From Terriglobia bacterium (GTDB lineage: Bacteria; Acidobacteriota; UBA6911), in NCBI GenBank assembly GCA_020072565.1, contig JAIQGI010000054.1, positions 1-36,239 of the forward strand: a stretch of DNA of 36,239 nucleotides, read 5' to 3'. The position numbers and the translations under genes were made by a program. Positions 3,617 through 28,867 of the stretch are shown piece after piece (position 1 is the stretch's first letter; every line of letters starts with the position of its first letter). The notes beneath the pieces were generated by a model that ran no database searches, was not told the origin of the DNA, and saw nothing but the letters and a program-made list of their open reading frames with translations.

Positions 3617-3625
3617 CCCGCCCTC

Positions 3626-4269: not shown

Positions 4270-4281
4270 TGGTGGTCTCTC

Positions 4282-7487: not shown

Positions 7488-7515
7488 GTGGATTGTCACT
7501 CTCTTGCTTGAAAGA

Positions 7516-8313
7516 CTAATCTGCGATCTCGAACGGCAGCCCGGCCTTTTCGGCCTGCGCCTTCGCATTGCGGTACTTCTGTGGGTCTTTCGCCTCCTCG
7601 CGGCTCAGTCGAACCACTTTGGCGTTGCTCGTGCCACCCGAGCTCGGCGGTGTCCCCGCTCCTGCGGACATCTTGAAGAGGTGCGGCGCATCCTGCTGCA
7701 AGCCGTTCACCCACTCATCGATCGAGATCGGCTTGTTCGGATCCTTGCCGTAAATCACCTGGTCGCCCTTCATCGCTGTCGGGGTCTTGTCCTTCAACGT
7801 CCAGGTCTTCTGACCGCGCAGCACCACATCCTCTACGGCATGCTCCAGAACGCCAGCTTTCATAGCCGCGGCGCGAATCGAGTTGTCGATCAGCACCTCG
7901 GCCATGGTCTGGTTGGCGGTCTTCAGATCCTTCTTCAGGTCGAGGATCGTTTTGTTGAAAGCGACGATCTGATTCTCATAATCGGCCTTCATCCGCTCGG
8001 TCCGGAGCTTCAGCAGATCCTCCACCTTCCCGGCATCGAGCAGCTGTTTATCCTCGAGCTCCTGGAGCTTCTTCTGGGCCTCTTTCGCCTTGTCGGGGTC
8101 GATGTCCTTAAACTTGTCGATGGTTTCCTGCAACTGCTTCTTGGCGGTCTTCAGCTCGTCCCGAACTGCCGTCAAGGCATTCTTGAGGCCACTAACATCC
8201 TCAACCCCTTCTGCGTCGAGTACGAACTTCCCGTCCTTCTCGACGTAATACTCACGCAATGCCTCCGGCAGTGCGTCATGTTCCTCCTTTGAGAGGATCG
8301 CCTTCAAAGCCAT
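7516..8313 (-). CDS. capsid scaffolding protein (coiled-coil)
   Basis: 265 residues from the ATG at 8313, about 10 nt after TTTTAGGAG. Residues about 40-150 are a long Lys/Glu/Leu heptad region (DELKTAKKQLQETIDKFKD; KKLQELEDKQLLDAGKVEDL), a coiled coil typical of scaffolding proteins. A region resembling the 'IRAAAMKAGV..AVEDVVLRG' motif of phage minor structural/scaffold (gp20-like) proteins follows, and a short basic C-terminal tail can contact coat subunits. Position directly before the coat gene is canonical. It should be removed or degraded during head maturation. It ends in TAG. Confidence 0.75.
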   Translation of the reverse strand: MALKAILSKEEHDALPEALREYYVEKDGKFVLDAEGVEDVSGLKNALTAVRDELKTAKKQLQETIDKFKDIDPDKAKEAQKKLQELEDKQLLDAGKVEDLLKLRTERMKADYENQIVAFNKTILDLKKDLKTANQTMAEVLIDNSIRAAAMKAGVLEHAVEDVVLRGQKTWTLKDKTPTAMKGDQVIYGKDPNKPISIDEWVNGLQQDAPHLFKMSAGAGTPPSSGGTSNAKVVRLSREEAKDPQKYRNAKAQAEKAGLPFEIAD

Positions 8314-9542: not shown

Positions 9543-9592
9543 TTGACATTCTAATGGAGTGTCATTATCTTCCATCAGACATTCTAATGGAG
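9543..9592 (+). promoter_or_regulatory. PadR1 promoter with operator-like repeats
   Basis: TTGACA (9543-9548), 17-nt spacer, TATCTT (9566-9571). The 15-bp sequence GACATTCTAATGGAG occurs at 9545-9559 and again at 9578-9592, 33 bp (about three helical turns) apart. The first copy overlaps the -35 box and is flanked by TGACA/TGTCA arms (9544-9548 and 9560-9564). The second carries the GGAG of the Shine-Dalgarno. This is the layout expected of PadR autorepression. Confidence 0.7.
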
Positions 9593-9599
9593 GTACAGT

Positions 9600-9935
9600 A
9601 TGGGCTCACAGAGGTCCGACCTGCTTCAGGGTACGCTTGACCTTCTCGTGCTCAAAACCCTCGACAGCATCGGTCCGATGCACGGCTATGCGATTGCGCG
9701 CCGCCTTCAGCAGGCATCGCATGACTTCCTCCAAGTGAACCAGGGCTCACTTTACCCTGCGTTGCTGCGTCTTGGGAGGCGCGGATGGGTCACCTCGAAG
9801 TGGGGAGTGACCGAGAACAATCGCAAGGCCAAATATTACTCGGTAACGAAGGCCGGGAAAAAGCAGCTGCAGCGGGAAGCTGAATGCTGGGATCGCATGG
9901 CGTCCGTCATTTATAAGGTACTTCAGGGCACGTAG
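9600..9935 (+). CDS. PadR-family transcriptional regulator (PadR1)
   Basis: 111 residues from the ATG at 9600, six nt after GGAGG. The winged-helix signature is clear: 'LLQGTLDLLVLKTLDSIGPMHGYAIARRL' type N terminus, 'GSLYPALLRLGRRGW' recognition helix/wing start, then 'KYYSVTKAGKKQL' and a short C-terminal helix for dimerisation. PadR proteins of this short class are repressors; in Acidobacteriota they typically precede orphan MacB/FtsX permeases. It is followed after 102 nt by such a permease and should repress its own promoter through the repeats upstream. Closely similar to PadR3 at 34969. It stands on the plus strand within a minus-strand phage head operon. Confidence 0.9.
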   Translation: MGSQRSDLLQGTLDLLVLKTLDSIGPMHGYAIARRLQQASHDFLQVNQGSLYPALLRLGRRGWVTSKWGVTENNRKAKYYSVTKAGKKQLQREAECWDRMASVIYKVLQGT

Positions 9936-10037
9936 CATGGCGCGGTGGCGAATCCCAATTTTCTCTTTGGGACTTCGTACGATGGATCGCATTCTGAAAT
10001 CAGGTGCCACTCGATCCGCCATGAGACAGGAGTTGAT

Positions 10038-12641
10038 ATGACATCGAAACTCAGATCGTTGAAGGCTGCCATCGCGGGCCTGTTTAAGAGAAAGCTCGAG
10101 TCTGAGATCGACCAAGAACTGCAATTCCATGTCGACCAACTGGCCGAGGACAATGTGCGCGCGGGAATGAGTAGAGACGAGGCAAGGCGGCAGGCTCTGG
10201 TCGCGATCGGCGGCATAGAGCAGACCAAGGAGGAGTGTCGTGATGCGATTGGTATCCGACTCTTGTGTGATCTCGCCCAAGACCTGCACTACGGATTTCG
10301 CCAGTTGGGGCGCTCCCGGGGCTTCACCGCCGTCGTTGTCGCGACCCTGGCGCTCGGAATTGGTGCCAACACCGCAGTGTTCAGCGCGCTTGATGCCGTT
10401 CTGCTCAGCCCATTACCGTTCCCCGATCAGGATCGACTGGTGTTCATATATGGTTTCGCACTGACAACGGCGAATTTCGAACAATGGAAGCAGGCAAGCC
10501 ACAGCTATGATCGCTTTGCGGCGGTATCGATTGGACCCGCCCAATGGATCGGCGAGGACGAACCGGCGCGCGTAGCGACGGCCGACGTCTCGGTGGATTT
10601 CCTGCCGCTACTCGGCGTAAGGCCGGTGGCAGGACGCTGGTTCGCCCCGGACGATTTCCTGCCCGACGCGGACGCCTCAGTGATCGTCAGCGAAAGGTTT
10701 TGGCGCAGCAAGTTGGGCGGAAGCCCCAATATCGCCGGCCAGCGTGTGAATCTCGACGGCAGGAGTTGTGCGGTAATCGGTGTGATGCCTGCGCGTACCC
10801 CTCTACCTTTTCCTGATCGCGATTTCTGGCTGCCCCTGCGTGCCGGCAGCCGGGCTCGCGGCGTCTATGCCTTGGCGCGGCTTCGATCGGGAACGGATGC
10901 CGAATCGGCACGCAGCGAGGCTCTGGCTTTATCCATGAATTTGGCTCCTCCCGGCCGCATTCCCAAGGGCCATACTCCGATTCAGGTTGTACCGTTGCTT
11001 GACATGCTAGTTGGCGACACGCGCACCGTGCTTCTTGTTTTAGCCGTCGCCGTCGGCTTTGTGTATCTGATTGCGTGCGCCAATGTTGCGAATCTTATGC
11101 TGGCCCGCACTACAGCTCGCAATATGGAAATCTCGATACGAAGGGCACTCGGTGCAAGCCGGAGCCGGCTGTTTCGCCAACTGAGCACCGAAGCCCTGTT
11201 GCTTGCCGCGTTGGGCGCTGGAATCGGGCTGGCCGCATCGAAATGGTTTCTGGATATCATGACGCTCCTGCTGCCATATCGTGTGCCACGCATCGAGCAG
11301 GCAGGCGTAAATCTCCCTGTACTTGTTTTTGCAGCTTCGCTCGCGTTTCTTGCCGCCTTAGCTTTCGGTCTTGTACCCACATTTCAGGGGGGAAGGTCCA
11401 GTTTGCAGGCGACGCTGCGCGAGACGAGCCTGGGACTGACAGATACGCGTCGGAGGAGGACCCTTCGCGGCGTGCTGGTTGTTGCCGAGATTTCGATAGC
11501 TCTCGTTTTGCTTATCGGCGCAGGACTCCTGATCGAGACGTTTTTGCGCTTGCGGCCTGCCAACCCTGGATTCAATCCGCGCGACAAATTGGTGTTGGAT
11601 GTTCGACTTGGTTCGAACCGCTATCCGTCTGCGTCACAGAAGCTGGCGTTCGTCTCCTCGGCATTGGACCGCTTGCGCGCGCTGCCGGGAGTGCTCGGTG
11701 TGGGTGCAGCCTCGGATCTGCCGTTTTCAGGGTCCACCTGGCTCGCTGACATCACAATCGATGGGCAAAAGGTCGCGGGAACCAGCGTGGGCACATTGGT
11801 GTTTTGCAGGGTGATTACGCCTGGTTTCCTTCGCTTGTTGGAGATACCCCTGGCAGCCGGAAGGGAGTTCAATGAGAACGATGCCAGCCACGCGCCAGGC
11901 GTGGCTGTCGTGAACCAAGCGTTTGTACGGCGTTTCTTCCAAACCAATGAGCGCGCAGTTCTCGACCGTAGGATTACAGTGGATGTTGGCGACGGCCGAA
12001 ACGTGGAATTCTCCCTGATCGGCGTAGCGCACGACGCGCGTATGTTCGGGAATTCGTCGGCTGCGCGCCCAGAATTATATCTCCCGCTCGCTCAGGCCGG
12101 CTCCGCGACGCTCAGTTTCGTTATTCACACCGATGCTCCAATGGAGAAGGCACCAATACTGAAACAAGCGCTGCGCGGAGACGACAGGCAACTCCTGATC
12201 ATCACTGTACAGAGCATGGAGGAATTGCTCGACTCCTCAGTCTCCTACCCGCGGTTCAATGCAGCACTCCTGGGCACCTTGGCCGCTCTCGCTCTCTTGC
12301 TGGCTCTCATCGGCACCTATGGCGTCCTCAGCTACACAGCCGGATTGCGGGTCAGGGAAATAGGAATCCGGCTTGCCCTTGGAGCGCACCGGATGCAAGT
12401 CGTCTGGCTCGTTCTGCGGCAGGGCCTTGTTCTTGCCGGTATCGGGATCTTTCTCGGCGCCGTAGGTGCCTGGGGCTTGACCCGCTACCTAGCCAGTCTT
12501 CTGACCGAAGTAAAGCCCACGGATGGGACAACATTCGCCATTGCTATCGCGGCCTGGATGTTTGTGGCCGCGCTTGCCTGCCTAGTGCCGGCAGCCCGCG
12601 CCGCCCGTGTAGACCCTTTGCGCACGCTACGCTCGGAGTAA
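10038..12641 (+). CDS. orphan FtsX/MacB-type permease (ADOP family)
   Basis: 867 residues from the ATG at 10038 (CAGGAG 5 nt upstream). Order: a cytoplasmic N-terminal domain with 'RKLESEIDQELQFHVDQLAE' and 'RRQALVAIGGIEQTKE' (the ADOP N-terminal signature, 15-65); TM1 'VATLALGIGANTAVFSALDA' (about 100-120); a MacB-type periplasmic domain; an FtsX domain with 'ANVANLMLARTTAR' and 'SIRRALGASRSRLFRQ'; a second periplasmic domain; and a final FtsX domain ending 'PAARAARVDPLRTLRSE'. No ATP-binding-cassette protein is encoded nearby, so it is an orphan: either it uses a distant ATPase or it is non-transporting. Co-transcribed with PadR1. Its presence in the window is the strongest evidence for an acidobacterial host. 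Confidence 0.85.
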   Translation: MTSKLRSLKAAIAGLFKRKLESEIDQELQFHVDQLAEDNVRAGMSRDEARRQALVAIGGIEQTKEECRDAIGIRLLCDLAQDLHYGFRQLGRSRGFTAVVVATLALGIGANTAVFSALDAVLLSPLPFPDQDRLVFIYGFALTTANFEQWKQASHSYDRFAAVSIGPAQWIGEDEPARVATADVSVDFLPLLGVRPVAGRWFAPDDFLPDADASVIVSERFWRSKLGGSPNIAGQRVNLDGRSCAVIGVMPARTPLPFPDRDFWLPLRAGSRARGVYALARLRSGTDAESARSEALALSMNLAPPGRIPKGHTPIQVVPLLDMLVGDTRTVLLVLAVAVGFVYLIACANVANLMLARTTARNMEISIRRALGASRSRLFRQLSTEALLLAALGAGIGLAASKWFLDIMTLLLPYRVPRIEQAGVNLPVLVFAASLAFLAALAFGLVPTFQGGRSSLQATLRETSLGLTDTRRRRTLRGVLVVAEISIALVLLIGAGLLIETFLRLRPANPGFNPRDKLVLDVRLGSNRYPSASQKLAFVSSALDRLRALPGVLGVGAASDLPFSGSTWLADITIDGQKVAGTSVGTLVFCRVITPGFLRLLEIPLAAGREFNENDASHAPGVAVVNQAFVRRFFQTNERAVLDRRITVDVGDGRNVEFSLIGVAHDARMFGNSSAARPELYLPLAQAGSATLSFVIHTDAPMEKAPILKQALRGDDRQLLIITVQSMEELLDSSVSYPRFNAALLGTLAALALLLALIGTYGVLSYTAGLRVREIGIRLALGAHRMQVVWLVLRQGLVLAGIGIFLGAVGAWGLTRYLASLLTEVKPTDGTTFAIAIAAWMFVAALACLVPAARAARVDPLRTLRSE

Positions 12642-12793
12642 CCGAGCGGAGGATAGAGAATCCGTTCCTCGCCACAAGGGATGACTGCAGCTGAGGACAG
12701 ACCCTCAATTACTCCTTGTGCCCTTAAACGGAAGGTGCCAGACCCAATCCAGCCCCTTGTTCCAGCACGAATTGCCAAGTGGCTTCTTATTGT

Positions 12794-14161
12794 CTACAGT
12801 ACGGTTCCCGCCTGGACTTCGGCTTGCTCCTGCTCAAAGTCCACACCGGGCCTCGTGAGCCCACTGCGCTCCATGTTGTGGTACAGGGTCGCTTTGGCAA
12901 TCGCGCCGCCCTGCCAGACAGTAACAAGCTCGCGCAACATAGCCGGGTCCATCGTCTGTTCAAAGAACTCGGTGTTCAGCCGGACAGTCACGTCTCCCGA
13001 CACGCCAGCCCAATCGGCAAACCATTGAAGCACGATCGTAAGCGCCAGACCGGCCGTGTTCGCAATTGTCGTCAGCGCAACCTGCTCGCCACCCAATCTG
13101 AGCCGTATTGCCTCGGCGGCTTCCGCCGCGCGCTTCGGATCTTCCAACAGCCGGGCGCCCAGCGCGGCCATCATCGCCTCTTTTTGCGAAAGAGCCTTCT
13201 CTAATGCCCCGAGACCCTGACCTGTGAATTCGAGGATGCCGGCCTTTGCATCCGTGCGGTCGGTAATCCACGCTGTCTGGCTGCCGATCCGTAGTTCCGT
13301 TCCCTCGGTTGGAAACCCAGCCACCCATACCGTTGGCAGTGCCGTGTAATGCCGTCCGTGCTCCAGATCCGCCGAGCTACGATAGTGGGACAGGTTCACG
13401 TCGACCAGGTCTTCGCTCGGCGACTTTTCTACATCCGGCAGGATTGTGTTCGGTCCAATGAAGCAAAATGGGACAAAATCCAGCGGCTGACCCTTCAGCT
13501 TGGGTACGCATTCCGCTACTGGAGACCAGGAATCTGGGTCGTTCTTGTCGATCTGCCGCCACACCCTGACCGTGTACGTATTGAGCGTATCGCCTTCAAG
13601 CGTAAGCACCCGATACTGCTCCACGTTTTTGATCTCGAATGGATCTTCTGGCTGAGGCTCTGCCTCTGATTCCCTCAGCACGACCATTGACAGGACTACG
13701 TCCCCCTGCCGGCGGGCAGTCTGCCAATTGACGATCTGTTCCGCCTTGAATGGAATCAGATACGGACGCCGCTCTGACGAATCCTCAGTGGGCATGTCAA
13801 CCAGAATGCCATAGCGCCCGACCGTAAGGACTTCTTGAAGCGCCGTCTTCGCGAGCGCCTCAATCGGAATGCCGGTCAGAGTTACATCCTGGAGTTGCTG
13901 CTGAATCGTCTCCGGGACAGCGATCTGTGGGTCCTTCCGAAACACACAGCCCAGCCAGCCTTGAATCGTCCGGGCGGTCGCGTTGTAATACAGCGCCCGG
14001 TCCGTGTATGCATCGTAATCGTCGCTATTCTGGCCACCCAGCTTCGGAAGGTATGTCTCGCCCCTCGCCTTGACCGCCTCGCTGCCATCGAAAGCATCCC
14101 GGCATTTCTGCCACTTGCCTTCGTTCTCGGAATACTGCGGATGCTTCGTCGTAACGCCCAT
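12794..14161 (-). CDS. portal protein (DUF4055-like)
   Basis: 455 residues from the ATG at 14161 (AGGGG 9 nt upstream). The opening 'HPQYSENEGKWQKCRDAFDG', 'YLPKLGGQNSDDYDAYTDRA' and 'ATARTIQGWLGCVFRKDP' strings are the diagnostic start of the DUF4055 family, whose members occupy the portal place between large terminase and Mu F-like genes. The dodecameric portal is the DNA entry ring. The middle has the 'NLSHYRSSADLEHGRHYTALPTVW' segment, and the last 100 residues are helical. The gene is complete and ends in TAG; the next structural gene lies 3.4 kb away because of the plus-strand insert. Confidence 0.85.
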   Translation of the reverse strand: MGVTTKHPQYSENEGKWQKCRDAFDGSEAVKARGETYLPKLGGQNSDDYDAYTDRALYYNATARTIQGWLGCVFRKDPQIAVPETIQQQLQDVTLTGIPIEALAKTALQEVLTVGRYGILVDMPTEDSSERRPYLIPFKAEQIVNWQTARRQGDVVLSMVVLRESEAEPQPEDPFEIKNVEQYRVLTLEGDTLNTYTVRVWRQIDKNDPDSWSPVAECVPKLKGQPLDFVPFCFIGPNTILPDVEKSPSEDLVDVNLSHYRSSADLEHGRHYTALPTVWVAGFPTEGTELRIGSQTAWITDRTDAKAGILEFTGQGLGALEKALSQKEAMMAALGARLLEDPKRAAEAAEAIRLRLGGEQVALTTIANTAGLALTIVLQWFADWAGVSGDVTVRLNTEFFEQTMDPAMLRELVTVWQGGAIAKATLYHNMERSGLTRPGVDFEQEQAEVQAGTVL

Positions 14162-14187: not shown

Positions 14188-15609
14188 TCAGAATCCCGTG
14201 ATTTTGCCAACCTTGATCGTTGCCTTGCGGTGCATCGCCCGATAGCGCGTCTCATCTGCGATGTGGTCTTCAGACTCGTCGTTGATGTCGTCAGGATCGC
14301 GCTCGTCCCTGGGCAATACCGGAACGGTGCGAATGAAATCTCGGCAAGTATCGAATACAAACATGCCCGGCGATTCCATCGGTCGATCCAGGCACGCTTT
14401 GAGCCGCTTTCTGAGTTCTTGCCAGCCCGGTTTGCGGCTGTTGTCCGTGCGATTGTCCCAGCGGATGCCAACTGCCGCCATGTCCTCGGCTACACAGTTG
14501 CCGTTCTCCTTGCTGAAGATTGATGGGTCAGCCGGCCCCGGTCGGATCGTATTGCCCTGCACCAGGGTTTTGAGAAGGATGCTTTCCCTTTCACGAATGC
14601 GCCGTGCAATCTCGGGCGCCGTCAGCTTCAAACCTTCGTTTGGATTCCCAGAGCAGCCGTAGTACTCGGAGATTCGAAACAGCGTTCCCCGAGGGTACAC
14701 CTTTCCGTTCGGCGCTTGTGTGCCGTCGCTCTCGGCCCACCAGCCGACACTGAACGGTTTCGCGCTGCCCCAGTCAAACGAACGGTCAACATACCACGTC
14801 TTGGGAACCGTAAAAGGCTGGACCAAATGAACGTCTGGCCGCCAGAGGTCGTCCAACATTCCTCCGGCAACGATGTCCCAGATGCCCCAGCGCCAGGCTT
14901 TGAGCAGTGCCTCGTTTCCTGATACCGACTCCACAACTCGCTGCCAGTACTCCGGGTCTGCATCCAGCAGCTTCCGGTTGTCTTCGAGCAGTGCCGGGAT
15001 ATAGACGCGCTTTCTGATGGCAGTCGAGCCGTCAAGCAGTCTGATCTTCTGGACGTGCGGAACCATCGGCGGTGCCGGATCCACGTACCGTCCTTTCACC
15101 CAGGAATGCCCAGGTCCGCCCGGATTTCCCGTACACCGGAGCATCGTCTTGACGCCCTTCGCACTGCGAAGGGTCGCCTTGATCTTGTCGATCGCGTATG
15201 GGCTCGCCCAGTTCGTGACCTCATCGAACCCGGCCCACGTGTACGAATGGCCCTGGTATTCCTCGGCGTCAACGTCGCGCTCGAGATGCCTGAGCTTCAA
15301 CTGTGCCTCATGCGGCCAGGTGAAAGTCGGCGGCGATGTCTTCCACGTCACCCCGAGCGGCAGGTATATCTCCTTCGCCCGTCGGATGATTTCTTCAAAC
15401 TGCTTGTACCTTTTCCTGAAGAGGATGCCGTTTGCGGCTGACCCATGTTGGATCACGTGATTGAGCCAATCGCCCAGCAGGCTGTCTGTCTTGCCGCCCC
15501 CGCGTCCCCCGCCCAAGAAGACATCGGGAATCCTGCAGCTAATGAGCCAGGCTTGAGGCCCCGGCTGTGGCTCCCAAATCGTCACTTCTTTGATTGCGCC
15601 GGCGCTCAT
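14188..15609 (-). CDS. terminase large subunit
   Basis: 473 residues if started at the ATG 15609; in-frame alternatives at 15645 (ATG) and 15651 (TTG) have no better Shine-Dalgarno. The ATPase shows Walker A GGGRGGGKT (33-41), Walker B WAGFDE (125-130, catalytic Glu 130) and the coupling motif CTGNPGG (159-165). The nuclease domain shows DRSFDWG (Asp 275/279) and later acidic residues (..DESEDHIADETRYR near the C terminus), the expected RNase H-like metal ligands. It pumps DNA into the prohead and cuts it. It overlaps the end of terS by about 70 bases, so translation is probably coupled. It ends in TGA 27 nt before the portal start. Confidence 0.92.
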   Translation of the reverse strand: MSAGAIKEVTIWEPQPGPQAWLISCRIPDVFLGGGRGGGKTDSLLGDWLNHVIQHGSAANGILFRKRYKQFEEIIRRAKEIYLPLGVTWKTSPPTFTWPHEAQLKLRHLERDVDAEEYQGHSYTWAGFDEVTNWASPYAIDKIKATLRSAKGVKTMLRCTGNPGGPGHSWVKGRYVDPAPPMVPHVQKIRLLDGSTAIRKRVYIPALLEDNRKLLDADPEYWQRVVESVSGNEALLKAWRWGIWDIVAGGMLDDLWRPDVHLVQPFTVPKTWYVDRSFDWGSAKPFSVGWWAESDGTQAPNGKVYPRGTLFRISEYYGCSGNPNEGLKLTAPEIARRIRERESILLKTLVQGNTIRPGPADPSIFSKENGNCVAEDMAAVGIRWDNRTDNSRKPGWQELRKRLKACLDRPMESPGMFVFDTCRDFIRTVPVLPRDERDPDDINDESEDHIADETRYRAMHRKATIKVGKITGF

Positions 15610-16141
15610 ATTCCTCTTGGCTTCGCTTGGCCCACTCGTCGTCATCCTCAACAGGTGCCGGCAGCCTTACCACTTTCACCTCACCCGAATGATCCGCAGC
15701 CACGTTGTCCGTCGGCTCGCCCCTGGCCAAACGCTCGATCTTCACGCCAACCTCAAGCAACCGCGCAATCACGCTTGGCGTAATCTCAACGTCCTTCCTG
15801 ACTTGGCCGGTCTGGTCAAGCAGGTTCTTTACTCCGCCCATCGCGATGTTTTGGAGCGTCACGCCTTCTTTGGCCTGGCGCTCCGCCATTTCGATGCGGG
15901 CTCTTTCCTGCGCAGCCTGCTTCAATCGCTGCATGTGGAGGTCGTACGCCTCGGCACGCTTCAGCCAATCCCATTTGGAACTGAGATCCCACATCATCCG
16001 GGCAGACCGCCCGACCTTCTCCGCGACTTTCTTGACCGACCGTTCCAATTGGTCCGTGTCTCGGTACAGGCAGAAGTACGAATACGCCCGCACCGACTCA
16101 AACGGCTGCCGCTCCCATTCCTCAATTTCGATCTTCGCCAC
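15539..16141 (-). CDS. terminase small subunit
   Basis: 200 residues from a GTG at 16141 (no strong Shine-Dalgarno; the N-terminal MAKIEIEEWERQP is plausible). An HTH-like segment 'SVKKVAEKVGRSARMMWDLSSKWDWLKRAEAYD' (about 34-67) is typical of the phage small terminase that recognises packaging DNA. Residues 70-105 are a helical oligomerisation region (KQAAQERARIEMAERQAKEG). The Asp/Glu/Arg-rich C-terminal tail probably contacts the large subunit. It precedes terL in the same operon. It ends in TAG. Confidence 0.75.
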   Translation of the reverse strand: MAKIEIEEWERQPFESVRAYSYFCLYRDTDQLERSVKKVAEKVGRSARMMWDLSSKWDWLKRAEAYDLHMQRLKQAAQERARIEMAERQAKEGVTLQNIAMGGVKNLLDQTGQVRKDVEITPSVIARLLEVGVKIERLARGEPTDNVAADHSGEVKVVRLPAPVEDDDEWAKRSQEEYERRRNQRSDDLGATAGASSLAH

Positions 16142-16156
16142 GACACACCAACCGCT

Positions 16157-16336
16157 TTACTTCGTATGCGCTTCCTGCTGCGCTGCAACTATTTCCGCGA
16201 CTACCTGTCTCGCTAGTCGATCAAACGCCTCGACGTATTGCTCGATTGTTTGGATGCGCTGTTTGATTTCGGGCAACCGCTTGATTGATTCGAGAAATGC
16301 GGTCGACAGAGCGTGAGAAGGAAGCGATTGAGAAAT
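16157..16336 (-). CDS. possible small coiled protein with non-standard start
   Basis: A minus-strand frame, open from beyond 16400, ends at TAA 16159-16157 just before terS. Its last 59 codons read like a real helical peptide (AFLESIKRLPEIKQRIQTIE; YVEAFDRLARQVVAEIVAAQ). The frame contains no ATG or GTG; a TTG lies too late. An ATT at 16336 with AAGG upstream is the only reasonable initiator. It may instead be a decayed gene whose N terminus was lost when the cassette array was joined to terS. Confidence 0.35.
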   Translation of the reverse strand: MSQSLPSHALSTAFLESIKRLPEIKQRIQTIEQYVEAFDRLARQVVAEIVAAQQEAHTK

Positions 16337-16359
16337 GTTGCCCTTAGGTGAACGATCGG

Positions 16360-16404
16360 GAAAACTCTGTTTATTGACAGGGGTGGGCCTTACAAGAGTT
16401 AGAC
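16360..16404 (-). other. possible degenerate attC site after the zinc-ribbon cassette
   Basis: GTCTAAC (16404-16398, minus strand) has the form of an attC R'' box and contains the TAA stop of the upstream ORF, as in many integron cassettes. It is followed by AACTCTTGT pairing with ACAGAGTT (16370-16363, one bulged T). The distal box reads GTTTTCC, which departs from the GTTRRRY consensus, and the element is short. It could equally be a simple terminator. Confidence 0.3.
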
Positions 16405-16788
16405 GTCCTTTTTCTTTCGAGCATCTCCATGTCCCTCGTGCTCGCGGAGCGGCTCCTCACACTTGTGGATGATCGCGCCTGTCTCAGGGTCAGTCACAAT
16501 CTCCTGGTAGAGATCCTTGCGGCGGTCAATACGCATGAGTCGCTCCACCCACTTCTTCGCGTCGCGAAAGTAGGACGCGCCGCTGAGCTGCTCTAAAAAG
16601 GGTTTGCGGCGACCAGCCTCCGTGGCCTTTAAGCCTAGCGAGCCTCGGGGTGTTACCGTTGCGGCAAGGCCCTGCTCGAACAGGCGCGAGGTCGACCCGC
16701 ATGTTGGGCACGGAACGCGTGAGCTCGCTGGAGTCTGCGGCGACTCGCTCAGCGGTCTCTTGCACTGACCACAGCGCACGGTATCCAC
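16399..16788 (-). CDS. zinc-ribbon hypothetical protein (cassette ORF)
   Basis: 129 residues from the GTG at 16788; GGAGG four nt upstream decides the start. The N terminus has a two-pair zinc ribbon: C6-x2-C9 (CGQC) and C27-x2-C30 (CPTC). The rest is basic and helical (YFRDAKKWVERLMRIDRRKDLY) with a Lys-rich end (ARKKKDV). No family recognised. The start lies just downstream of an attC-like site and the TAA stop lies inside GTCTAAC, so the ORF looks like an integron gene cassette. Being last in the array, it abuts the terS region. Confidence 0.6.
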   Translation of the reverse strand: MDTVRCGQCKRPLSESPQTPASSRVPCPTCGSTSRLFEQGLAATVTPRGSLGLKATEAGRRKPFLEQLSGASYFRDAKKWVERLMRIDRRKDLYQEIVTDPETGAIIHKCEEPLREHEGHGDARKKKDV

Positions 16789-16802
16789 GGTGCCTCCGCA
16801 AT

Positions 16803-16897
16803 GTCTAGCGCCATGCCGCTCAGCAGCTAGCGGCGCAAATGTCCCGCCGAATCAACCCGCCGCACCCGCGCCGCTCGCCGGCTGCGGCCTTTTAGTA
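16803..16897 (-). other. attC-like recombination site (cassette junction)
   Basis: On the minus strand: R''-like TACTAAA (16897-16891), then GCAGCC and CGAGCGGC, a shared GGCGGGACATT tract, CGCCGCTAGCTGCTGAGCG and R'-like GCTAGAC (16809-16803). The inner blocks CGAGCGGC, GGCGGxACATT and CGCCGCTAGCxGCTGAGCG recur in the site at 17505-17604, so the two belong to one family. The boxes are one or more bases off the RYYYAAC/GTTRRRY consensus. The upstream ORF runs 46 bases into it. Confidence 0.55.
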
Positions 16898-17475
16898 AGG
16901 GGGCCTCTGCCGATCTTTTTGACTGACTTGCCTGCTTCCAGTCGTACCAGGCGTTCGACTCGCCTCACGAGATCCGAGACGTCACTCACTATGATCCGCA
17001 CTTTCCTGATGCTTCTGCGAACTGGCGAGCTACGCAAGTCTGAAACAAACTTCGTGAGTAGTCGCTCCAACCGGCTGTATTTCCGAACCTGCTGCCCCCT
17101 CCTGCTGACGGTTAGGGCGACGATCATAGTCGCGTCATGAATCGGGTAAGACCTTCCCTGAACGTGGATTCTCCTCGCCAGTATCGTACCGAATATGTCG
17201 CCAAGTATAATCTTGGGTCGCACCGAAGATTCTTCTACCTCCACCACTACGAACACATTACCCTTCTTGAGGAGCACGATGTCCACTCCGGAGAGAGTCG
17301 CATCCGCGCCATACCGGCGACCCATATAAGAGGTGGGCTGGCAGACGTCAACATCCGTGGAATCGCCATGGTCATAACGCACATCGATGTCCCCATAGCG
17401 CCCAGGATTGTTGCGCAACCTTCCGCGCAGCGTCTCAGCAATCTGCCTCGTTTTCTCGCCTTGTCGCTGTGTCAT
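16852..17475 (-). CDS. PD-(D/E)XK-like hypothetical protein (cassette ORF)
   Basis: 207 residues from the ATG at 17475 (GGAG seven nt upstream). The core is 'GVDIVLLKKGNVFVVVEVEES': Asp 65, a turn, then a hydrophobic strand ending in E79-V-E81. That is the layout of a PD-(D/E)XK nuclease active site with Glu in place of the usual Lys. An alpha-beta region follows (IVALTVSRRGQQVRKYSRLE) and a basic C terminus. The last 15 residues (LTKRPQPASGAGAAG) are encoded inside an attC-like element, so the original stop may have been lost. It sits between two attC-like sites. A restriction-type or DNA-binding role is possible, but catalytic competence is doubtful. Confidence 0.5.
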   Translation of the reverse strand: MTQRQGEKTRQIAETLRGRLRNNPGRYGDIDVRYDHGDSTDVDVCQPTSYMGRRYGADATLSGVDIVLLKKGNVFVVVEVEESSVRPKIILGDIFGTILARRIHVQGRSYPIHDATMIVALTVSRRGQQVRKYSRLERLLTKFVSDLRSSPVRRSIRKVRIIVSDVSDLVRRVERLVRLEAGKSVKKIGRGPLTKRPQPASGAGAAG

Positions 17476-17504
17476 GAAGTTTTCTCCGGCCCTGTGATTC
17501 CCGC

Positions 17505-17604
17505 TTCCAACGGCCTTGGCGCTCAGCCGCTAGCGGCGAGAGATTAATGTTCCGCCAAGCTGCCACCAGGCGGGCCGCTCGATGGCTGCCGCGCCGTGTT
17601 AGAC
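17505..17604 (-). other. attC-like recombination site (best-formed boxes)
   Basis: On the minus strand R'' GTCTAAC (17604-17598) matches RYYYAAC exactly and contains the TAA stop of the preceding ORF. R' GTTGGAA (17511-17505) matches GTTRRRY in six of seven positions. Near the ends GGCGCGGCAGCC pairs with GGCTGAGCGCC (revcomp agreement with one gap), giving the long imperfect stem and extrahelical base expected of attC. Length 100 bp. It shares internal blocks with the site at 16803-16897. Confidence 0.65.
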
Positions 17605-18387
17605 GGCCCCGTGCTGCGATAACCGAACCAAGTGTTTCACGAATGACGATGTAAGTTCGATTACGAACTCAACTTCTTCTTCCACAACCGCATCGTCCTG
17701 CTTCACATACGTATTCTGATACTTCGTGTAATATTCGATCAGCTTTACAAACATATTGGTGAATTCCGGAGAACCACCCCGTGCCTTCACGAATTCTCCC
17801 ACCGCCGGAATCTGGTTTTCCAGGGAGCGGCTATTGCCGAGTAGATCCTGAATGGCCTTTTCTAGCGACAAACGCAAGTCGTCGAGGACATTTCTTTGGA
17901 AGACTCCGTGTTTGTGTTTCGCCAACGCGTCATTGTAAAGTTCAAGCGCCCCTGGAAACGGATCGAGCCAGTGACGAGTCTGTTCGATCAATGCTTTATT
18001 TACTTCAGCTCCTATCGCGTCGGGAGCAAGATGGCTATACCGCGTGATTAGCAGCAGCTAAACTTTCTGTATGCCAGCCCGATTTCGCTGCGCGATCGTT
18101 GGGTGGTCGCACAGTTCTTTGATGATTTGGTAACGCTGAGGTTCTTGAAACGGCATTATGTTCTCAGCCAAAGCCGTCCTTATATTGACTGCTTCATACG
18201 GAAATGTCGGGTGAGGAATGTCGACAGCGTATTCAGTCGCGTACGCGCGACATGCCCTAACGATCTCTTGAGCACTCAGACCGCAGTTCGATCCACCCAA
18301 GACATCGGCGGCATGGTTAACAAATGTTGCTGATAGGGAGTTTGGCATAAACGCGATCTTTTTCTGGCCATGATAGAGTGCCGTCAC
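17599..18387 (-). pseudogene. HEPN / Abi-C-like abortive-infection protein split by in-frame TAG
   Basis: Two ORFs in the same frame, 18387-18058 (109 residues) and 17991-17599 (130 residues), are separated only by TAG (18060-18058) and 22 sense codons without ATG. Read through, it is one 262-codon gene. The first half has 'VNHAADVLGG', 'YAVDIPHPTFPYEAVNIRTAL' and 'QRYQIIKELCDHP'. The link 'RYSHLAPDAIGAEVNKAL' looks conserved. The second half is an Abi-C-like HEPN helix bundle ('SLEKAIQDLLGNSRSLENQ', 'KLIEYYTKYQNTYVKQDD', 'EEEVEFVIELTSSFVKHL'). The 'KQDD' segment has Gln where I would expect the His often seen in the family. The GTG start overlaps the nuclease stop (GTGA). Either a recent nonsense mutation (AAG to TAG is one change), a suppressed codon, or two separate proteins. 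Confidence 0.6.
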
Positions 18388-19604
18388 ACACGGTCGAACC
18401 TCACGTCTTCGAACGCCAACAAGAGCAATGAAGCTAGCGACTCGTTGCCCGCGACCAGTTCATGGATTTCCTTTTGGCTCAGTACTAGGATCGCGGTGCG
18501 ATCCTGAAGATACTCCTTGCTGATCGCCAAGCATGCGCCGCTTCTCTTCGTTCTCGGTGTGGACCCTGAGATCCCTTTGCTCGAAACTAGCACGCCAGTC
18601 TTCACCGCAGCCGCTTGAAGGCGACCAGCCATTTCACGGACGGTCGGCGCGCGGACCTTCTTGCCCCAGTTCTTGCACTCGACAAGTAGATAGTCACCGA
18701 CGGCCGCAATCGCCGCGTCATCATGGCCGTTTCTGACGAGGATGTCGTTCTGGGCGTCTGGTGCTTTGCTCGGGCCAAGAACCTCGAAACCTCGCTCTGC
18801 GGCAAACAGGTAGGTTATCAAGGCTTCGAGCGCATCCCCTTTCTGCTTGGCCGTTTGTCCGGGAGACCCAAGTCTGGCAGCCATACTTGCGGCAAGTCCC
18901 TTCAAGAAGAGGAGCGGGGCACGCGTGAACCGCCTCTTGTGAGGGAGCAGGGCGAGCCATATGGACTCTGGCTCAGCTGGAGACCAGGAACTAGCCGCGC
19001 ACATTCGAGCTGCCTCACGACCAAGACCGTCGACGACGACGGCAGCCATCTGCTGACCGTTTACGAGCGAGTCCCTTGCAGGTAGATTCTGCCAAGTTGA
19101 TGCGTCCGTGCGCACATCCTCGATCATCGCGAGGAGAAACCAATTGCGTGCCTCGTCATCGCGGCGTAGGGCTTGGCGCGAGCGCCCGATCCACCAAAGA
19201 ACTGTGCCTTTCAGAAACCGAGTTGGCTGAGCAACTTGGGCGACCTCAGCTTCCCTTACGAACTGGTACCAGCGCAGGAAGACCTCTCCGGCCTCATTGG
19301 GGAATCCACTGTTCAGGAGAGTCACGCCGAACTTGAGCCACTTCTGTTCGTACTCCTGGAGGGTCGCAAGAAACGGCCCGGCTCGGAGTGCCGCAGCCGT
19401 GTGCACAGAGAACTCGGCGAGAAGTCCACCGAACCATCGAAACAGATCGGGCAACGACTGGAACAGGAAAGGGAATACTCGATTCTCCCATCGGACGGGC
19501 GCATGAAGGTAGAGGTGCACTATGTGGGAGAAACTGCCGTGGGCGTAAGAAGCGCCGGTGACGCGACATCGGCGCTGAATCGCTTGCGGAGCGGCTCTTG
19601 CCAT
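18384..19604 (-). CDS. restriction-endonuclease-like protein with ECK motif (cassette ORF)
   Basis: 406 residues from the ATG at 19604 (GGACACC upstream); a TTG at 19625 would place the start inside the attC box. Residues 1-245 are a helical region of no recognised family. Residues about 254-350 form a PD-(D/E)XK nuclease core: 'KGDALEALITYLFAAERGFEV' (Glu 260), 'QNDILVRN' (Asp 287) and 'DYLLVECKNWG' (Glu 309, Lys 311), like Mrr/RecB-like endonucleases. It is immediately followed, with a GTGA overlap, by the HEPN/Abi-C-like gene; the two probably act together as a defence unit, carried as one cassette between attC-like sites. A stand-alone restriction role is the alternative. Confidence 0.7.
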   Translation of the reverse strand: MARAAPQAIQRRCRVTGASYAHGSFSHIVHLYLHAPVRWENRVFPFLFQSLPDLFRWFGGLLAEFSVHTAAALRAGPFLATLQEYEQKWLKFGVTLLNSGFPNEAGEVFLRWYQFVREAEVAQVAQPTRFLKGTVLWWIGRSRQALRRDDEARNWFLLAMIEDVRTDASTWQNLPARDSLVNGQQMAAVVVDGLGREAARMCAASSWSPAEPESIWLALLPHKRRFTRAPLLFLKGLAASMAARLGSPGQTAKQKGDALEALITYLFAAERGFEVLGPSKAPDAQNDILVRNGHDDAAIAAVGDYLLVECKNWGKKVRAPTVREMAGRLQAAAVKTGVLVSSKGISGSTPRTKRSGACLAISKEYLQDRTAILVLSQKEIHELVAGNESLASLLLLAFEDVRFDRV

Positions 19605-19624
19605 GGTTGAGGTGTCCTTTGCCA

Positions 19625-19702
19625 ACCTAACGGCATGCGCTTAAGCTGCGGCACCTCCTATTCTTGACGGGCGGCGCCATCGGCTGCAAGCGCTTATTAG
19701 AC
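19625..19702 (-). other. attC-like recombination site between Mrr-like and ECK-nuclease cassettes
   Basis: On the minus strand R'' GTCTAAT (19702-19696) and R' GTTAGGT (19631-19625); the latter matches GTTRRRY exactly. Next to them GCGCTT pairs with AAGCGC, and GC-rich inner arms (GATGGCGCC / GGTGCCGC) continue the imperfect stem. Length 78 bp. The following ORF starts about 20 bases downstream, as expected in cassettes. Confidence 0.65.
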
Positions 19703-19719
19703 CGCACATGCTTCGAATT

Positions 19720-20430
19720 TCACATCCGAACGGGCTCCTGGCTGCGCAATTTCAGCAACCATTGACGAAGTTCATCTCCATTCTTGAGTTCTAGCCGATA
19801 CGGCATAAAAGCATTGAGCCCGCTGTCCTTGTCAATTCCTGGCGCGAATCGGCTCGTTGTAGTAATCAAACCCTTTGAGACGTTGAATTCTGCCGAAAGA
19901 ACGCCAAGCATCGAGCGCACCTCATCGGCAGTAACCACGTATCCCTGTCTGTAGGCCTTGATTTGGTCGATGATTCGCACTGAGCCCACCCCAGGTCTTG
20001 TCGCAATCACATCTCGGCCGCGGTCTCCACTCCGAGGCGTCAGGATAACTTCCGGCCATCCCGCGCGGGTATAGGCGCCGGCAATAATCTCCTCAAGCTT
20101 CCGCCAGGGGATCTTGAAAAGGAACTCAGGATCTCGCTCAAGTTGGCTGATGATTTCGAACCAGGGCACGGCCAAACCGGCAACCACTTGGCCTTCTTTG
20201 TGTCGATCGCCAAAAACTACAACAGTGGCCTGCACGAGAACTTCAGGGTATACGCTGACGGCTGGGGGATGCCCTTTGAGGTTGAGCTGACCTGTTGGAA
20301 CCTCGATGACTACGGATGTTCCAGTCTGAGCAGGAAATGTCGCGATCCGACTACGCCAGTGCTCCACCAGACTTGGTGTTGCAGAGTCTTGTGGTAGCCA
20401 ATCCATCTTTGTGCTGTCGTCTTCATCCAT
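19720..20430 (-). CDS. Mrr-like restriction endonuclease (first cassette ORF)
   Basis: 236 residues from the ATG at 20430; no clear Shine-Dalgarno, as is common for cassette genes read from an external promoter. Residues 105-200 match the Mrr catalytic domain: 'RKLEEIIAGAYTRAGWPEV' (Glu 113/114), 'TPRSGDRGRDVIATRPG' (Asp 140), 'VRIIDQIKAYRQG' (Q156-x-K158) and 'SKGLITTTSRFAPG'. This DxD...QxK arrangement is the Mrr-type PD-(D/E)XK centre, typically active on modified DNA. The N-terminal 100 residues are an unassigned beta-rich domain. It is followed after 18 bases by an attC-like site. Upstream (20431-20688) I see no gene on either strand. Confidence 0.8.
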   Translation of the reverse strand: MDEDDSTKMDWLPQDSATPSLVEHWRSRIATFPAQTGTSVVIEVPTGQLNLKGHPPAVSVYPEVLVQATVVVFGDRHKEGQVVAGLAVPWFEIISQLERDPEFLFKIPWRKLEEIIAGAYTRAGWPEVILTPRSGDRGRDVIATRPGVGSVRIIDQIKAYRQGYVVTADEVRSMLGVLSAEFNVSKGLITTTSRFAPGIDKDSGLNAFMPYRLELKNGDELRQWLLKLRSQEPVRM

Positions 20431-20688
20431 GAATAACCCGTTATGCGCCTCTTCGTCGGTCCAATTTTGAATTGCGCCGGTCTATATAAACGGATACACC
20501 GTCCGTGCATCACGGTGCCACTTTTGCGACTTTCTACCCAAATGTCTAATGATGAGTATCTTACCACGCTTTAGGCTCGCAGCGTATTTGGATACACCGC
20601 CATGCTGGTCTCGCCAATCGGTTAATGGCCGCGAGAATCGATCAATTGGCATGCCCTCTACGACGACATGCTTGCTGCGCTTGGCCGA

Positions 20689-21072
20689 TCATGCAATCTT
20701 CTCGCTTCGACCGTGCTCGGCAATCATCTTGGCAATTCTTGGTGGTTCCCAGTTGTCAGGCTTCAGAATCTTGCCGTCCTTGCGTGTTCTGCCGCCTTCC
20801 TTCGACATGTTCGTGCGGTGAACCTCGTCAATGAACTGGTCGAGATTTTTGATTCCGAAGGTCAGCGCCGCGCCGTAACAGACATAGATCAGATCACACA
20901 GTCCATCGACCGCCTCAACAAGGTCGCCGCGCCGGATTGCCTCAATCGTTTCCATTGCCTCCTCTGCGATCAAGCTGGCCCGAAGGCCGCCCTCGCGGAT
21001 CGCTGGAGTGTCGCCAATTGGCACGCCGAATTTCTCGTGAAACTCCCTTACCTGCTCCTGTACTTTGCTCAC
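20689..21072 (-). CDS. MazG-like / PRA-PH-type nucleotide pyrophosphohydrolase
   Basis: 127 residues from the GTG at 21072 (GAGG seven nt upstream); a GTG at 21096 is in frame but lacks a Shine-Dalgarno. The all-helical motif EExxE ... ExxD is present as 'SLIAEEAMETIEAIRRGD' and 'EAVDGLCDLIYVCYGAA'. The tail 'EVHRTNMSKEGGRTRKDGKILKP' is the usual C-terminal signature of phage members. These enzymes hydrolyse (d)NTPs or alarmones to monophosphates and may sanitise nucleotide pools or counter starvation signalling. Transcribed with the phage middle genes. Confidence 0.85.
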   Translation of the reverse strand: MSKVQEQVREFHEKFGVPIGDTPAIREGGLRASLIAEEAMETIEAIRRGDLVEAVDGLCDLIYVCYGAALTFGIKNLDQFIDEVHRTNMSKEGGRTRKDGKILKPDNWEPPRIAKMIAEHGRSEKIA

Positions 21073-21104
21073 CAACAAACCTCGCTTGAAAGGCACCGTA
21101 GGAA

Positions 21105-21449
21105 TCAGGATCCCTGGTTCGCCCGGATGCTTTCGTACACCGGCACTATTCCACCCAATTTCGCCTTTCGCGTCCTGGCCGCGTTCTCCGCATGGAGCTT
21201 CGCGTCATATGTCAGGTGACAACGCTGGCACCAAGCCCTCAGGTTTCCCCTGTCGCAGTTCTGCGTATTGTGATCGAGATGGGCTACTGTCAGAACAACC
21301 TTGCTTCCGGTTTCTGGATGCGGCTTCCCGTTCTCAGCCCGGCAGTTTGGATACCGCGGGCTCCCTTCGCATTGGTATCCCGCTCGCTCCAAGATCTCCT
21401 GGCGTATGGCTTTCCAGTTTGGCGGATATTTCCGGTAGTCGATTGTCAT
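21105..21449 (-). CDS. HNH endonuclease-like protein
   Basis: 114 residues. The ATG (21449-21447) overlaps the stop of the upstream gene as ATGA. The HNH core is 'TVAHLDHNTQNCDRGNLRAWCQRCHLTYD': His 57/60, Asn 69 and a C74-x2-C77-H78 knuckle, preceded by 'GYQCEGSPRYPNC', which supplies further Cys ligands. A basic 'NAARTRKAKLGG' tail follows. Free-standing HNH proteins in phages serve in packaging, homing or recombination; here it is in the replication/nucleotide region, so the specific role is open. Confidence 0.8.
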   Translation of the reverse strand: MTIDYRKYPPNWKAIRQEILERAGYQCEGSPRYPNCRAENGKPHPETGSKVVLTVAHLDHNTQNCDRGNLRAWCQRCHLTYDAKLHAENAARTRKAKLGGIVPVYESIRANQGS

Positions 21450-21775
21450 TCTTGCGCAGGGACGTTCGCTTGTTCGTAAATGATCTGCTTGCCGAGCTTC
21501 GTTGTAACGACATGCTCTTGGCGGGACCCCACGCTCTGTTGCCAGTTGGGTAGCATTACGATCACATCGGAACGCTTCACAAATTCCAAGTCTCCGTTTA
21601 GCCAGGTCTCATCCGGGCAGGCGCCACCAAGAAACGCAGTGTTCTTGTGCGGACAGATCACGGCATAACCGAGTTGCCAATATTTCAGGGCTACGCGCTC
21701 GGCTTGGCGAATGTTCTCCAATACGTAGAATTCCGACGGTGCTCTATACGGTCCCGCGATATATGCAATCTTCAC
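21446..21775 (-). CDS. DUF4406-like (nucleoside deoxyribosyltransferase-like fold)
   Basis: 109 residues from a GTG at 21775 with GAGGAG upstream. 'KIAYIAGPYRAPSEF' at the N terminus, 'GYAVICPHKNTAFLGG' in the middle and 'DVIVMLPNWQQSVGSRQEH' (Ser 84, Glu 87) are the three conserved blocks of DUF4406. The fold is that of nucleoside 2-deoxyribosyltransferases, so it probably binds or edits a nucleotide or a modified base. It is translationally coupled to the HNH gene. Confidence 0.8.
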   Translation of the reverse strand: MKIAYIAGPYRAPSEFYVLENIRQAERVALKYWQLGYAVICPHKNTAFLGGACPDETWLNGDLEFVKRSDVIVMLPNWQQSVGSRQEHVVTTKLGKQIIYEQANVPAQE

Positions 21776-21785
21776 GCGCTACTCC

Positions 21786-22148
21786 TCAAGCGGCCAGGGC
21801 TCGCATTTCCGTCTTGAGCCATTCCCGGATTTCCTTCAGGTCGAGCTTCACGATCTGGTTCGCCCGTCTTGCGAGCGCGTCGTAGCGCTCCTGGCCGATT
21901 TGCATCAGCTTCCAGATCTTATGTGCAGTTGGGTGATGGTCCAGATACCAGTGGCATTCCCAACAAAGAGGGGTGGCATTCTCAAAGTCGAAGCGCGTCG
22001 ACTTGTTTCGCCTGCTATGGAAATGACTGCAATGAAGCCGGTCCCTGTCTCCGCTGAAGTCCCCACAGCATCGTGCGCATTTCCAGTTCGCCCGGGTCCG
22101 AACCAGGAGCGAAAATTCGCGGTCCAGCCTGTCGAGCCCTATTGACAT
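21786..22148 (-). CDS. NinG/Rap-like recombination nuclease
   Basis: 120 residues from the ATG at 22148 (AAGGGAAG upstream, giving MSIGLDRLDREFSLLVR). Key pattern: 'NWKCARCCGDF' (C24, C27), 'RLHCSHFHSRRNKSTRFD', 'ENATPLCWECHWYLDHHP' (N57, C62, C65, H66): a zinc-bound HNH-like core as in lambda NinG (Rap), a Holliday-junction/recombination nuclease. The C-terminal helix 'QERYDALARRANQI' is also typical. The start lies 134 bases inside the neighbouring small gene (22015-22341), in another frame. Confidence 0.75.
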   Translation of the reverse strand: MSIGLDRLDREFSLLVRTRANWKCARCCGDFSGDRDRLHCSHFHSRRNKSTRFDFENATPLCWECHWYLDHHPTAHKIWKLMQIGQERYDALARRANQIVKLDLKEIREWLKTEMRALAA

Positions 22149-27480: not shown

Positions 27481-27597
27481 GGTTCGCCGCTGAGGGGATA
27501 TTATTTCGTTAGTAGACCCGGTGTCTGCGCAAGCGATATGCTAAGATCGCGTTTCTTGTAGGCGGATCAGCTCTTGTCGCCTCAGACCAGGGGGTGA

Positions 27598-28347
27598 ATG
27601 CCTTTTATGCCTACTCAAGAAGAAACTGCTGTTCAACCACTCAACAAGGATTCCTCGTTCGACAATAAGAGCAGCATTGTCCGGCGTGCGCGCATCAAGA
27701 CGGCCATTGGGGATGCCGTCCTGGGAATCGTTTTGTTCGGTGCGGCGGGAGATCTGGTCTGGCTGCAGGGGTGGGCTTACATGGCGGTTCTCCTTGCCAG
27801 CACTATCTTGTCGTTATTCGGTCCGTTTCAGATCGACGCAGGCCTGATGCAGGAGCGAATGTCGAAAAAGCCGGACGCAAAACAGTGGGATTGGTTTTTC
27901 GTCGCCCTGGTGGGTATTCTGACCTTCGCCGAACTGATTGTCCCCGCATTCGATCATCGCTGGGGATGGACACACCAGCTACGCCCTTGGATGAGCTGGC
28001 TCGGCCTCGCCATGGTGGCCTTAGGAACCCTGATCCTAATCTGGAGCATGCGTGTCAATCGCTTCTTCTCAGCCGTCATTCGAATTCAGAGTGACCGCGG
28101 ACACCACGTCATATCGACAGGGCCGTACCGCAAGGTCCGCCATCCTGGCTACGCGGGTTGGGGCGTACGCACCTTGGGAGTCCCGCTGCTGCTCGGATCC
28201 CTTTGGGCTTTTATCCCCGCGAGCCTGTTCGTCGCTTCCTTTGTTATCAGGACGAGTCTTGAGGATCGGATCCTCCAGGCAGAATTGCCGGGTTACTCGG
28301 AGTATGCGTCAACTGTGAGAGCCAAGCTTCTGCCGGGAATTTGGTAG
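27598..28347 (+). CDS. isoprenylcysteine carboxyl methyltransferase-like membrane protein
   Basis: 249 residues from the ATG at 27598 (an in-frame ATG at 27607 is also possible). Several hydrophobic segments ('AVLLASTILSLFGPF', 'WFFVALVGILTFAELIVPAF', 'SWLGLAMVALGTLILIWSM', 'LGVPLLLGSLWAFIPASLFVASF'). The C-terminal signature 'STGPYRKVRHPGYAGWG' and 'EDRILQAELPGYSEYASTVR' is that of the ICMT/PEMT-like family, which uses S-adenosylmethionine at the membrane. Substrate in bacteria is unknown. It is on the plus strand between minus-strand phage genes, so it is host-derived or a moron. Convergent with the DUF488-like gene, 85 bases away. Confidence 0.8.
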   Translation: MPFMPTQEETAVQPLNKDSSFDNKSSIVRRARIKTAIGDAVLGIVLFGAAGDLVWLQGWAYMAVLLASTILSLFGPFQIDAGLMQERMSKKPDAKQWDWFFVALVGILTFAELIVPAFDHRWGWTHQLRPWMSWLGLAMVALGTLILIWSMRVNRFFSAVIRIQSDRGHHVISTGPYRKVRHPGYAGWGVRTLGVPLLLGSLWAFIPASLFVASFVIRTSLEDRILQAELPGYSEYASTVRAKLLPGIW

Positions 28348-28432
28348 GCCGGAGGCCCGCACCGCTCTGTGCCAGAACACGCATCAAGAAATGCCGCGGT
28401 CCCCTTCGACGCCACGGCCCCTTGCGTGGAGA

Positions 28433-28867
28433 CTACAACAGACGCAACTGCGGCTTCTTCTTCGTTTGTGCACCCGGTTGCTTCGCCGCCCAGGTCGGAC
28501 TCAGCGGCATCGCATGATACGCAGGCACCTCGCTTCGCTGAAAGCCCATCTCGCTGATTTCGATCCCAAGCGCGGCTTCCAACCATTCGGCGACCAGGCG
28601 CCGATGACACTTGTGCCAGTGCGGGGCAGGGTTCTCCCAGCAGAGCAGAATCGCGTCCATGCCGAGATCTTCGAACACCTTCCGCGGATCCAGCTTTGAG
28701 AGCAGTTCGGAGTACATCCGATCGAATCCCTCATCACCAGCCCGCAGCATCTCGCGCGTCGGCCTCAGCGGCTCGTAGACCTTGCCGTCGTAAAACCTGG
28801 GCAGGCCCCGCGAGATCGCCCACGCATCCGGATTTCCTTTCGTTCTGAAGAAATTGCTTGTCAGCAT
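28433..28867 (-). CDS. DUF488-like protein
   Basis: 144 residues from the ATG at 28867. 'NPDAWAISRGLPRFYDGKVYEPL' with 'ILLCWENPAPHWHKCHRRLVAEWL' and the 'GIEISEMG' end are the DUF488 pattern: a conserved C-W-E ... C-H-R box (Cys, Glu, Cys/His). Activity is unknown. The C-terminal 25 residues are Lys/Gln-rich (AAKQPGAQTKKKPQ). It is transcribed with the tRNA from the promoter at 29023-28994. It ends in TAG. Confidence 0.7.
   Translation of the reverse strand: MLTSNFFRTKGNPDAWAISRGLPRFYDGKVYEPLRPTREMLRAGDEGFDRMYSELLSKLDPRKVFEDLGMDAILLCWENPAPHWHKCHRRLVAEWLEAALGIEISEMGFQRSEVPAYHAMPLSPTWAAKQPGAQTKKKPQLRLL

Follow-up and report, generated by a model that had tools for sequence, protein, structure and literature searches.

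Clusters of attC sites lacking an integron integrase (CALINs) are known from phage genomes (Qi et al. 2023, PMC9892861); the relevant portion of that paper describes cassettes lying mostly on one strand with GTTRRRY at their edges, DNA methyltransferases carried by some of the clusters, and phage attC sites that recombined with IntI1. Integron cassettes have also been described as anti-phage libraries (Darracq 2025, Kieffer 2025 and Getz 2025, as cited in passages of PMC12409362 and PMC12444791), and prophages P2 and P4 have defence hotspots near cos (2022, PMC9122126), in a paper whose text does not contain the word integron. A search of open-licence papers returned no report joining phage CALINs, defence cassettes and phage defence hotspots. 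Each of the three is known, and their combination is the new part of the locus described here. It lies in contig JAIQGI010000054.1 of a soil-type Terriglobia bacterium (Acidobacteriota), which was analyzed over its whole length of 36,239 bp (the window; contig C54 of a 7.46-Mb genome in 135 contigs). The region between positions 16360 and 20430 is, by every test available, a CALIN, and this small integrase-less cassette array is very probably exchangeable cargo in a prophage hotspot that adjoins the terminase genes.

An earlier note, made from the letters of the window alone, had described three attC-like elements in this region. On re-reading of the sequence, the attC boxes, their coordinates and the directions of the open reading frames (ORFs) were as it had given them. 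A plain pattern search of the host genome found one true site, but the number of matches was only at the control level, and this search was rejected as evidence. A home-made box-and-arm score ranked two attC sites at the top, yet shuffled DNA scored nearly as high; we therefore built a covariance model of attC (R1). The model was trained on 21 attC sites from genomes of the same phylum that carry IntI, taken from the surroundings of integron integrases (TIGR02249), and its training set contained no sequences from the window's own genome. The covariation score of the R1 alignment was 0.406 compared with 0.116 in shuffles, and 14 pairs were changed on both sides. The window was searched with filters off. 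The minus-strand scan, which the earlier note had proposed as a check, gave two matches, at 19625-19702 and 17505-17604 (Table 1), and the best remaining match in the window reached 12.4 bits.

The third element, at 16803-16897, did not hold as an intact site. Despite its low score we take it for an attC whose two R boxes are gone, because it is homologous to the element at 17505-17604 over most of its length: the alignment score of the two was 72, the maximum in 500 shuffles was 48, and none of the shuffles (0/500) reached the observed value. The L''/L' asymmetry (a 2x1 loop), as read from the letters, makes minus the canonical attC top strand, which is also the coding strand; a simple orientation score favoured minus for 19625-19702 only and left the other two elements undecided. 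Single-strand folding of each element, another proposed check, gave energies no better than shuffles for all three, and folding energy was dropped as attC evidence. For this reason, the evidence consists in the fit to a covariation model of relatives and not in stability. As a control, R1 was applied to 80 portal-bearing viral contigs with related portals (912 kb), where matches at E <= 1 occurred only at two sites in one contig, L113. No attC was found by R1 in 119 kb of other prophage loci; the more distant prophages with related TerL (L143, L144 and L145) had none.

Read from the right on the minus strand, the array consists of a first Mrr gene, an attC, a two-gene cassette (a second Mrr gene and a PDC-S32 gene), an attC, a gene for a protein of 207 amino acids (aa), the decayed attC and a gene for a protein of 129 aa. 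This amounts to about four cassettes with five genes, all ORFs being on the minus strand; there are one or two genes per attC, oriented in common with the attC top strand. The two sites recognized by R1 are 2.0 kb apart, with the third, decayed one nearby. The stop codons at 16399-16401 and 17599-17601, the latter being the final stop of the PDC-S32 gene, do sit in GTCTAAC, as had been noted. A search of the contig for the integron integrase (TIGR02249) returned no match at E <= 10, which, together with the two R1 sites, bears out the description of the region as a cassette array without integrase. The edge of the array on the terminase side may be what is left of an attC after loss of the hairpin, although its remaining boxes are suggestive only.

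Table 1. Features of the cassette array, of the neighbouring phage genes and of the two hotspots (window coordinates unless a contig is named)
Feature	Position	Strand	Evidence or remark
Cassette gene 1, Mrr-type restriction endonuclease, 236 aa	19720-20430	-	Pfam Mrr_cat 1.8e-14, 54.3 bits (cut-off 21)
attC of cassette 1, intact	19625-19702	-	GTCTAAT ... GTTAGGT; R1 37.8 bits, E 1.4e-7
Cassette gene 2, C-terminal Mrr domain, 413 aa	18384-19625	-	Pfam Mrr_cat 4.9e-7, 30.3 bits (cut-off 21)
PDC-S32 HEPN-like candidate defence gene	17599-18387	-	PADLOC PDC-S32 1.5e-48 and 7.1e-11, two halves
attC of two-gene cassette	17505-17604	-	GTCTAAC ... GTTGGAA; R1 21.8 bits, E 0.0017
Cassette gene, 207 aa, no family match	16852-17475	-	end runs into decayed attC
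Decayed attC, sibling of 17505-17604	16803-16897	-	TACTAAA ... GCTAGAC; R1 4.4 bits
Last cassette gene, 129 aa, CxxC zinc-ribbon-like N-terminus	16399-16788	-	stop in GTCTAAC box
Terminase-side array edge	16387-16405	-	orphan R''-like GTCTAAC, then 4 nt (TCTT), then GTAAGGC
Other array edge (range)	20431-20688	.	between cassette gene 1 and phage nucleotide pyrophosphohydrolase
PRA-PH/MazG-like gene (phage nucleotide pyrophosphohydrolase)	20689-21096		
Terminase small subunit, terS, flanks array	15539-16141	-	PHROG 6299, 9e-18
Terminase large subunit, TerL	14188-15651	-	PHROG 979, 3.7e-27; 50% identical to a phage record
Portal protein	12794-14161	-	PHROG 145, 1.4e-136
Hotspot A, replaced in sister prophage	16233-21803	.	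counterpart C21:63756-66426; blastn collinearity, flank alignment
Hotspot B, portal/head-morphogenesis gap	9550-12793	.	PadR and FtsX/MacB-type permease on plus strand
L113 attC	L113:6167-6232		R1 23.2 bits
L113 attC	L113:7000-7096		R1 29.8 bits
L113 ORFs beside attC sites	L113:6247-6996 and 7105-7785		

The position of the array beside terS and within a phage genome, also claimed in the earlier note, is confirmed by its flanks and by a related prophage. Family matches identify terS, TerL, portal, scaffold, major head, connector and tail genes on the left of the array and nucleotide-metabolism, HNH, NinG-like and processivity-factor genes on the right. The host genome harbours a sister prophage (C21:46775-74221; TerL 96%), which is collinear with window positions 1-31,070 at 78-91% nucleotide identity per segment, mostly 87-91% (blastn). 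PHROG matches and this collinearity place the genes of one phage on both sides of the array. The homology stops right of 31,070, and the prophage therefore likely ends at about this position. At hotspot A, the sister has no array and carries instead a single ORF of 683 aa with a HATPase_c match, on the opposite strand (C21:64089-66140). Since the sister is collinear but lacks the array, the array is, as judged from the alignment of the two copies, an insert or replacement specific to the window's prophage. Two other inserts of the window, a TPR/YfiO-like protein (1257-2443, plus strand) and an ICMT/PEMT-type methyltransferase (27481-28474, plus strand), are absent in C21 and run against the direction of the phage genes. 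A tRNA was detected inside the prophage by Rfam (28889-28961, minus strand, 44.9 bits) and was not reported by ARAGORN.

A second site with variable content, hotspot B, is found between the portal and head-morphogenesis genes. Its cargo in the window is a PadR regulator and an 898-aa FtsX/MacB-type permease (9600-12641, plus strand), while C21 has a DUF3800 gene and a 1449-aa PNP-STAND NTPase with Avs4/PN-effector similarity (C21:55145-60232). Another relative, L077 (~87% identical to the window), has a two-gene insert there (2102-4569, 456 and 366 aa, no family match). When the flanks of the window, C21 and L077 were aligned, the inserts were seen to start at identical points. In L113 (TerL 60%, portal ~50%), two attC sites lie between the portal and head-morphogenesis genes. 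With the window's array in hotspot A and the L113 sites in hotspot B, cassettes thus occur in both hotspots, in different phages. Variable cargo stands between conserved genes of related phages at two sites, and the window, C21, L077 and L113 all differ. From sequence comparison, this phage lineage has two exchangeable cargo hotspots, which integron cassettes have filled at least twice. Several side observations concern the same loci. The PadR and FtsX/MacB-type permease pair recurs in the host flank of the window (31174-34180); the cargo of C21 at the two sites (DUF3800 and PNP-STAND NTPase; HATPase_c protein) represents candidate defence systems; the gene pair at L077:2102-4569 is a possible new cargo pair; and the TerL frame of L113 (841 aa, L113:1653-4178) holds an insertion with intein-like ends.

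The gene types proposed in the earlier note fared unequally. Its Mrr-like and ECK-type nucleases both exceed the Pfam cut-off and belong to the Mrr class, for which we took Mrr_cat together with a D...(Q/E)xK core: D...QIK is present in the product of cassette gene 1, which also matches the PADLOC PDC-S02 models, and D...ECK in that of gene 2. The TTG start of gene 2, at 19625, is inside an attC, and there is an in-frame ATG at 19604. The HEPN-like ORF proved to be one half of a gene that had been listed as two. A single in-frame TAG at 18058-18060 splits it into ORFs 18058-18387 and 17599-17991, and it has no intact full-length frame; it shares a cassette with gene 2, the two overlapping by 4 bp. 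L036 has an intact homologue of 240 aa, to which the two halves, both matching PDC-S32, are 62% and 41% identical; the TAG falls opposite a stretch of conserved length in this homologue. The predicted structure of the L036 homologue (pLDDT 81) consists entirely of helices and most resembles the HEPN protein 2hsb, though the likeness is weak (E 0.25, prob 0.99). Homologues of PDC-S32 were also found in Lysinibacillus and in a Cloacimonadota genome, with no attC nearby by R1, and a partial match on one Lactobacillus plasmid. The 207-aa protein had been taken for PD-(D/E)XK-like, a call that the searches did not confirm: it gave no matches in Pfam, PADLOC, NCBIfam, PHROGs or PDB, and its single-sequence structure model was unusable (pLDDT 34.5). 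The CxxC motif of the supposed zinc-ribbon protein is present at the N-terminus of the 129-aa product, whose matches to Zn-ribbon families are all sub-threshold. With two Mrr_cat domains above the Pfam cut-off, one PADLOC candidate, and different defence-like genes found in relatives at these sites, the cargo is defence-like. The CALIN tests, the phage flanks and these matches support the view of the earlier note that cassettes were captured into a prophage, a defensive role being the likely consequence.

Integrons are widespread in the phylum, the integron integrase (TIGR02249) being present in 75 of 247 genomes. In several integrons of the phylum (e.g. L060, L062 and L070), intI is followed downstream by the attC array, with both on one strand, whereas the two usually diverge. 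The host genome contains ~35 further attC by R1, 30 of them in C57:2662-23625, where ~30 well-conserved sites are associated with small genes. A TIGR02249 search of this genome found nothing above the cut-off, only other tyrosine recombinases and integrase fragments; fragments of IntI are located at C96:165-317, C77:4876-4965 and C18:6568-6723. Around the latter two, C77:4801-5900 and C18:5901-7700 share further translated stretches, as if the debris were carried by a repeated element.

The capture route, the expression and the defence function of the cassettes are what we infer from these data. Cassettes from the integron pool common in the phylum would have reached the phage in one of two ways, with a host integron integrase working in trans on attC and a secondary site, or with illegitimate recombination copying part of a chromosomal array. 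The array may since have been kept as passive cargo that is now decaying, since the boxes of one attC are lost, a single box is left of the attC at the terminase edge, and a premature stop interrupts one gene. The cassettes are read in the direction of the phage late genes. The two Mrr-like nucleases would most likely protect the lysogen from other phages by a restriction-type defence, and the HEPN-like gene may once have been part of a two-gene cassette. Several observations weigh against this account. R1 found no attC at either edge of the array, not even at the terminase edge, where a clean one would be expected, and neither edge has a clean attC or attI junction, which disfavours insertion by IntI. 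The attC sites of the window, with 37.8 and 21.8 bits compared to up to 63 bits in C57, are close to none of those compared; they are more diverged than the C57 sites and unlike the main type of the host array, and the host's present array is therefore not an obvious source. The earlier note had proposed to look for the same cassettes elsewhere, but a search of 396 genomes of the phylum turned up no relative of the second Mrr protein or the 207-aa protein, no cassette relatives were found in the viral contigs searched, the first Mrr protein has weak matches only, and these searches point to no donor array.

One can ask whether the elements are attC sites at all or chance or unrelated inverted repeats, e.g. 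terminators, between ordinary phage accessory genes. The folding energies and the 4.4 bits of the third element would agree with this; however, two sites fit the boxes, spacers and asymmetric loop of a model derived from independent integrons, the third is homologous to the second, and nothing comparable exists in ~1 Mb of related phage DNA except in L113, which makes chance repeats exceedingly improbable. It is also very unlikely that a piece of a host chromosomal integron was joined to the prophage by rearrangement or assembly error and is not phage cargo. Such an event is conceivable in an assembly of 135 contigs from a host with one large and several small attC arrays, but the phage genes are collinear with the sister on both sides of the array, the array occupies the very spot where the sister has another insert, its attC differ from the main type of the host array, and attC cassettes occur in a related viral contig as well.

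More weight should be given to the notion, which we nevertheless consider rather unlikely, that the cassettes have anti-defence or other phage-benefit functions or are idle hitch-hikers. The frame of the HEPN-like gene is interrupted, two genes fall into no known family, and genes in a phage late region can serve phage development. Restriction is indicated instead by a PADLOC candidate and by two Mrr-type nucleases whose core residues are intact, and the alternative cargo of the sister is an Avs-like STAND NTPase. Exchangeable, defence-like prophage cargo is the preferred explanation of the array. A broader version of it, possible but on the whole doubtful, is that temperate phages of this lineage have two fixed hotspots, one beside terS and one between portal and head genes, into which they recruit defence genes as integron cassettes time and again; the integron pool and the phage hotspots would then exchange genes directly, possibly via host integrases in trans.

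Phage defence hotspots turn over fast, and the origin of their genes is mostly unknown. The hotspot comparison hints at the origin of some of this cargo: the attC sites that remain in two hotspots of related phages indicate the integron cassette pool, widespread in the phylum, as one identifiable source, and the route of recruitment becomes testable. Because different defence-like genes occupy the spot of the array in close relatives, our data suggest that such phages take part of their weaponry from the bacterial gene-cassette pool.

With the CALINs described in the relevant portion of PMC9892861, the locus has in common integrase-less attC clusters in phage genomes and cassettes on one strand; relative to that portion, the host phylum and the nuclease cargo are new examples, and the link of cargo to a hotspot and the comparison of the site with that of a sister prophage are found only here. 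Small defence genes in attC cassettes are also common to the anti-phage integron cassettes, which, in the passages of PMC12409362 and PMC12444791 concerned, include shortened type IV restriction genes; those cassettes belong to chromosomal or mobile integrons, whereas here they are phage cargo with no adjacent integrase and putative activity. As in the P2 and P4 hotspots (PMC9122126), small variable loci lie between conserved phage genes near packaging functions and hold nucleases, STAND NTPases and unknown genes, but the phage lineage and the sites are others, and part of the cargo described here bears attC.

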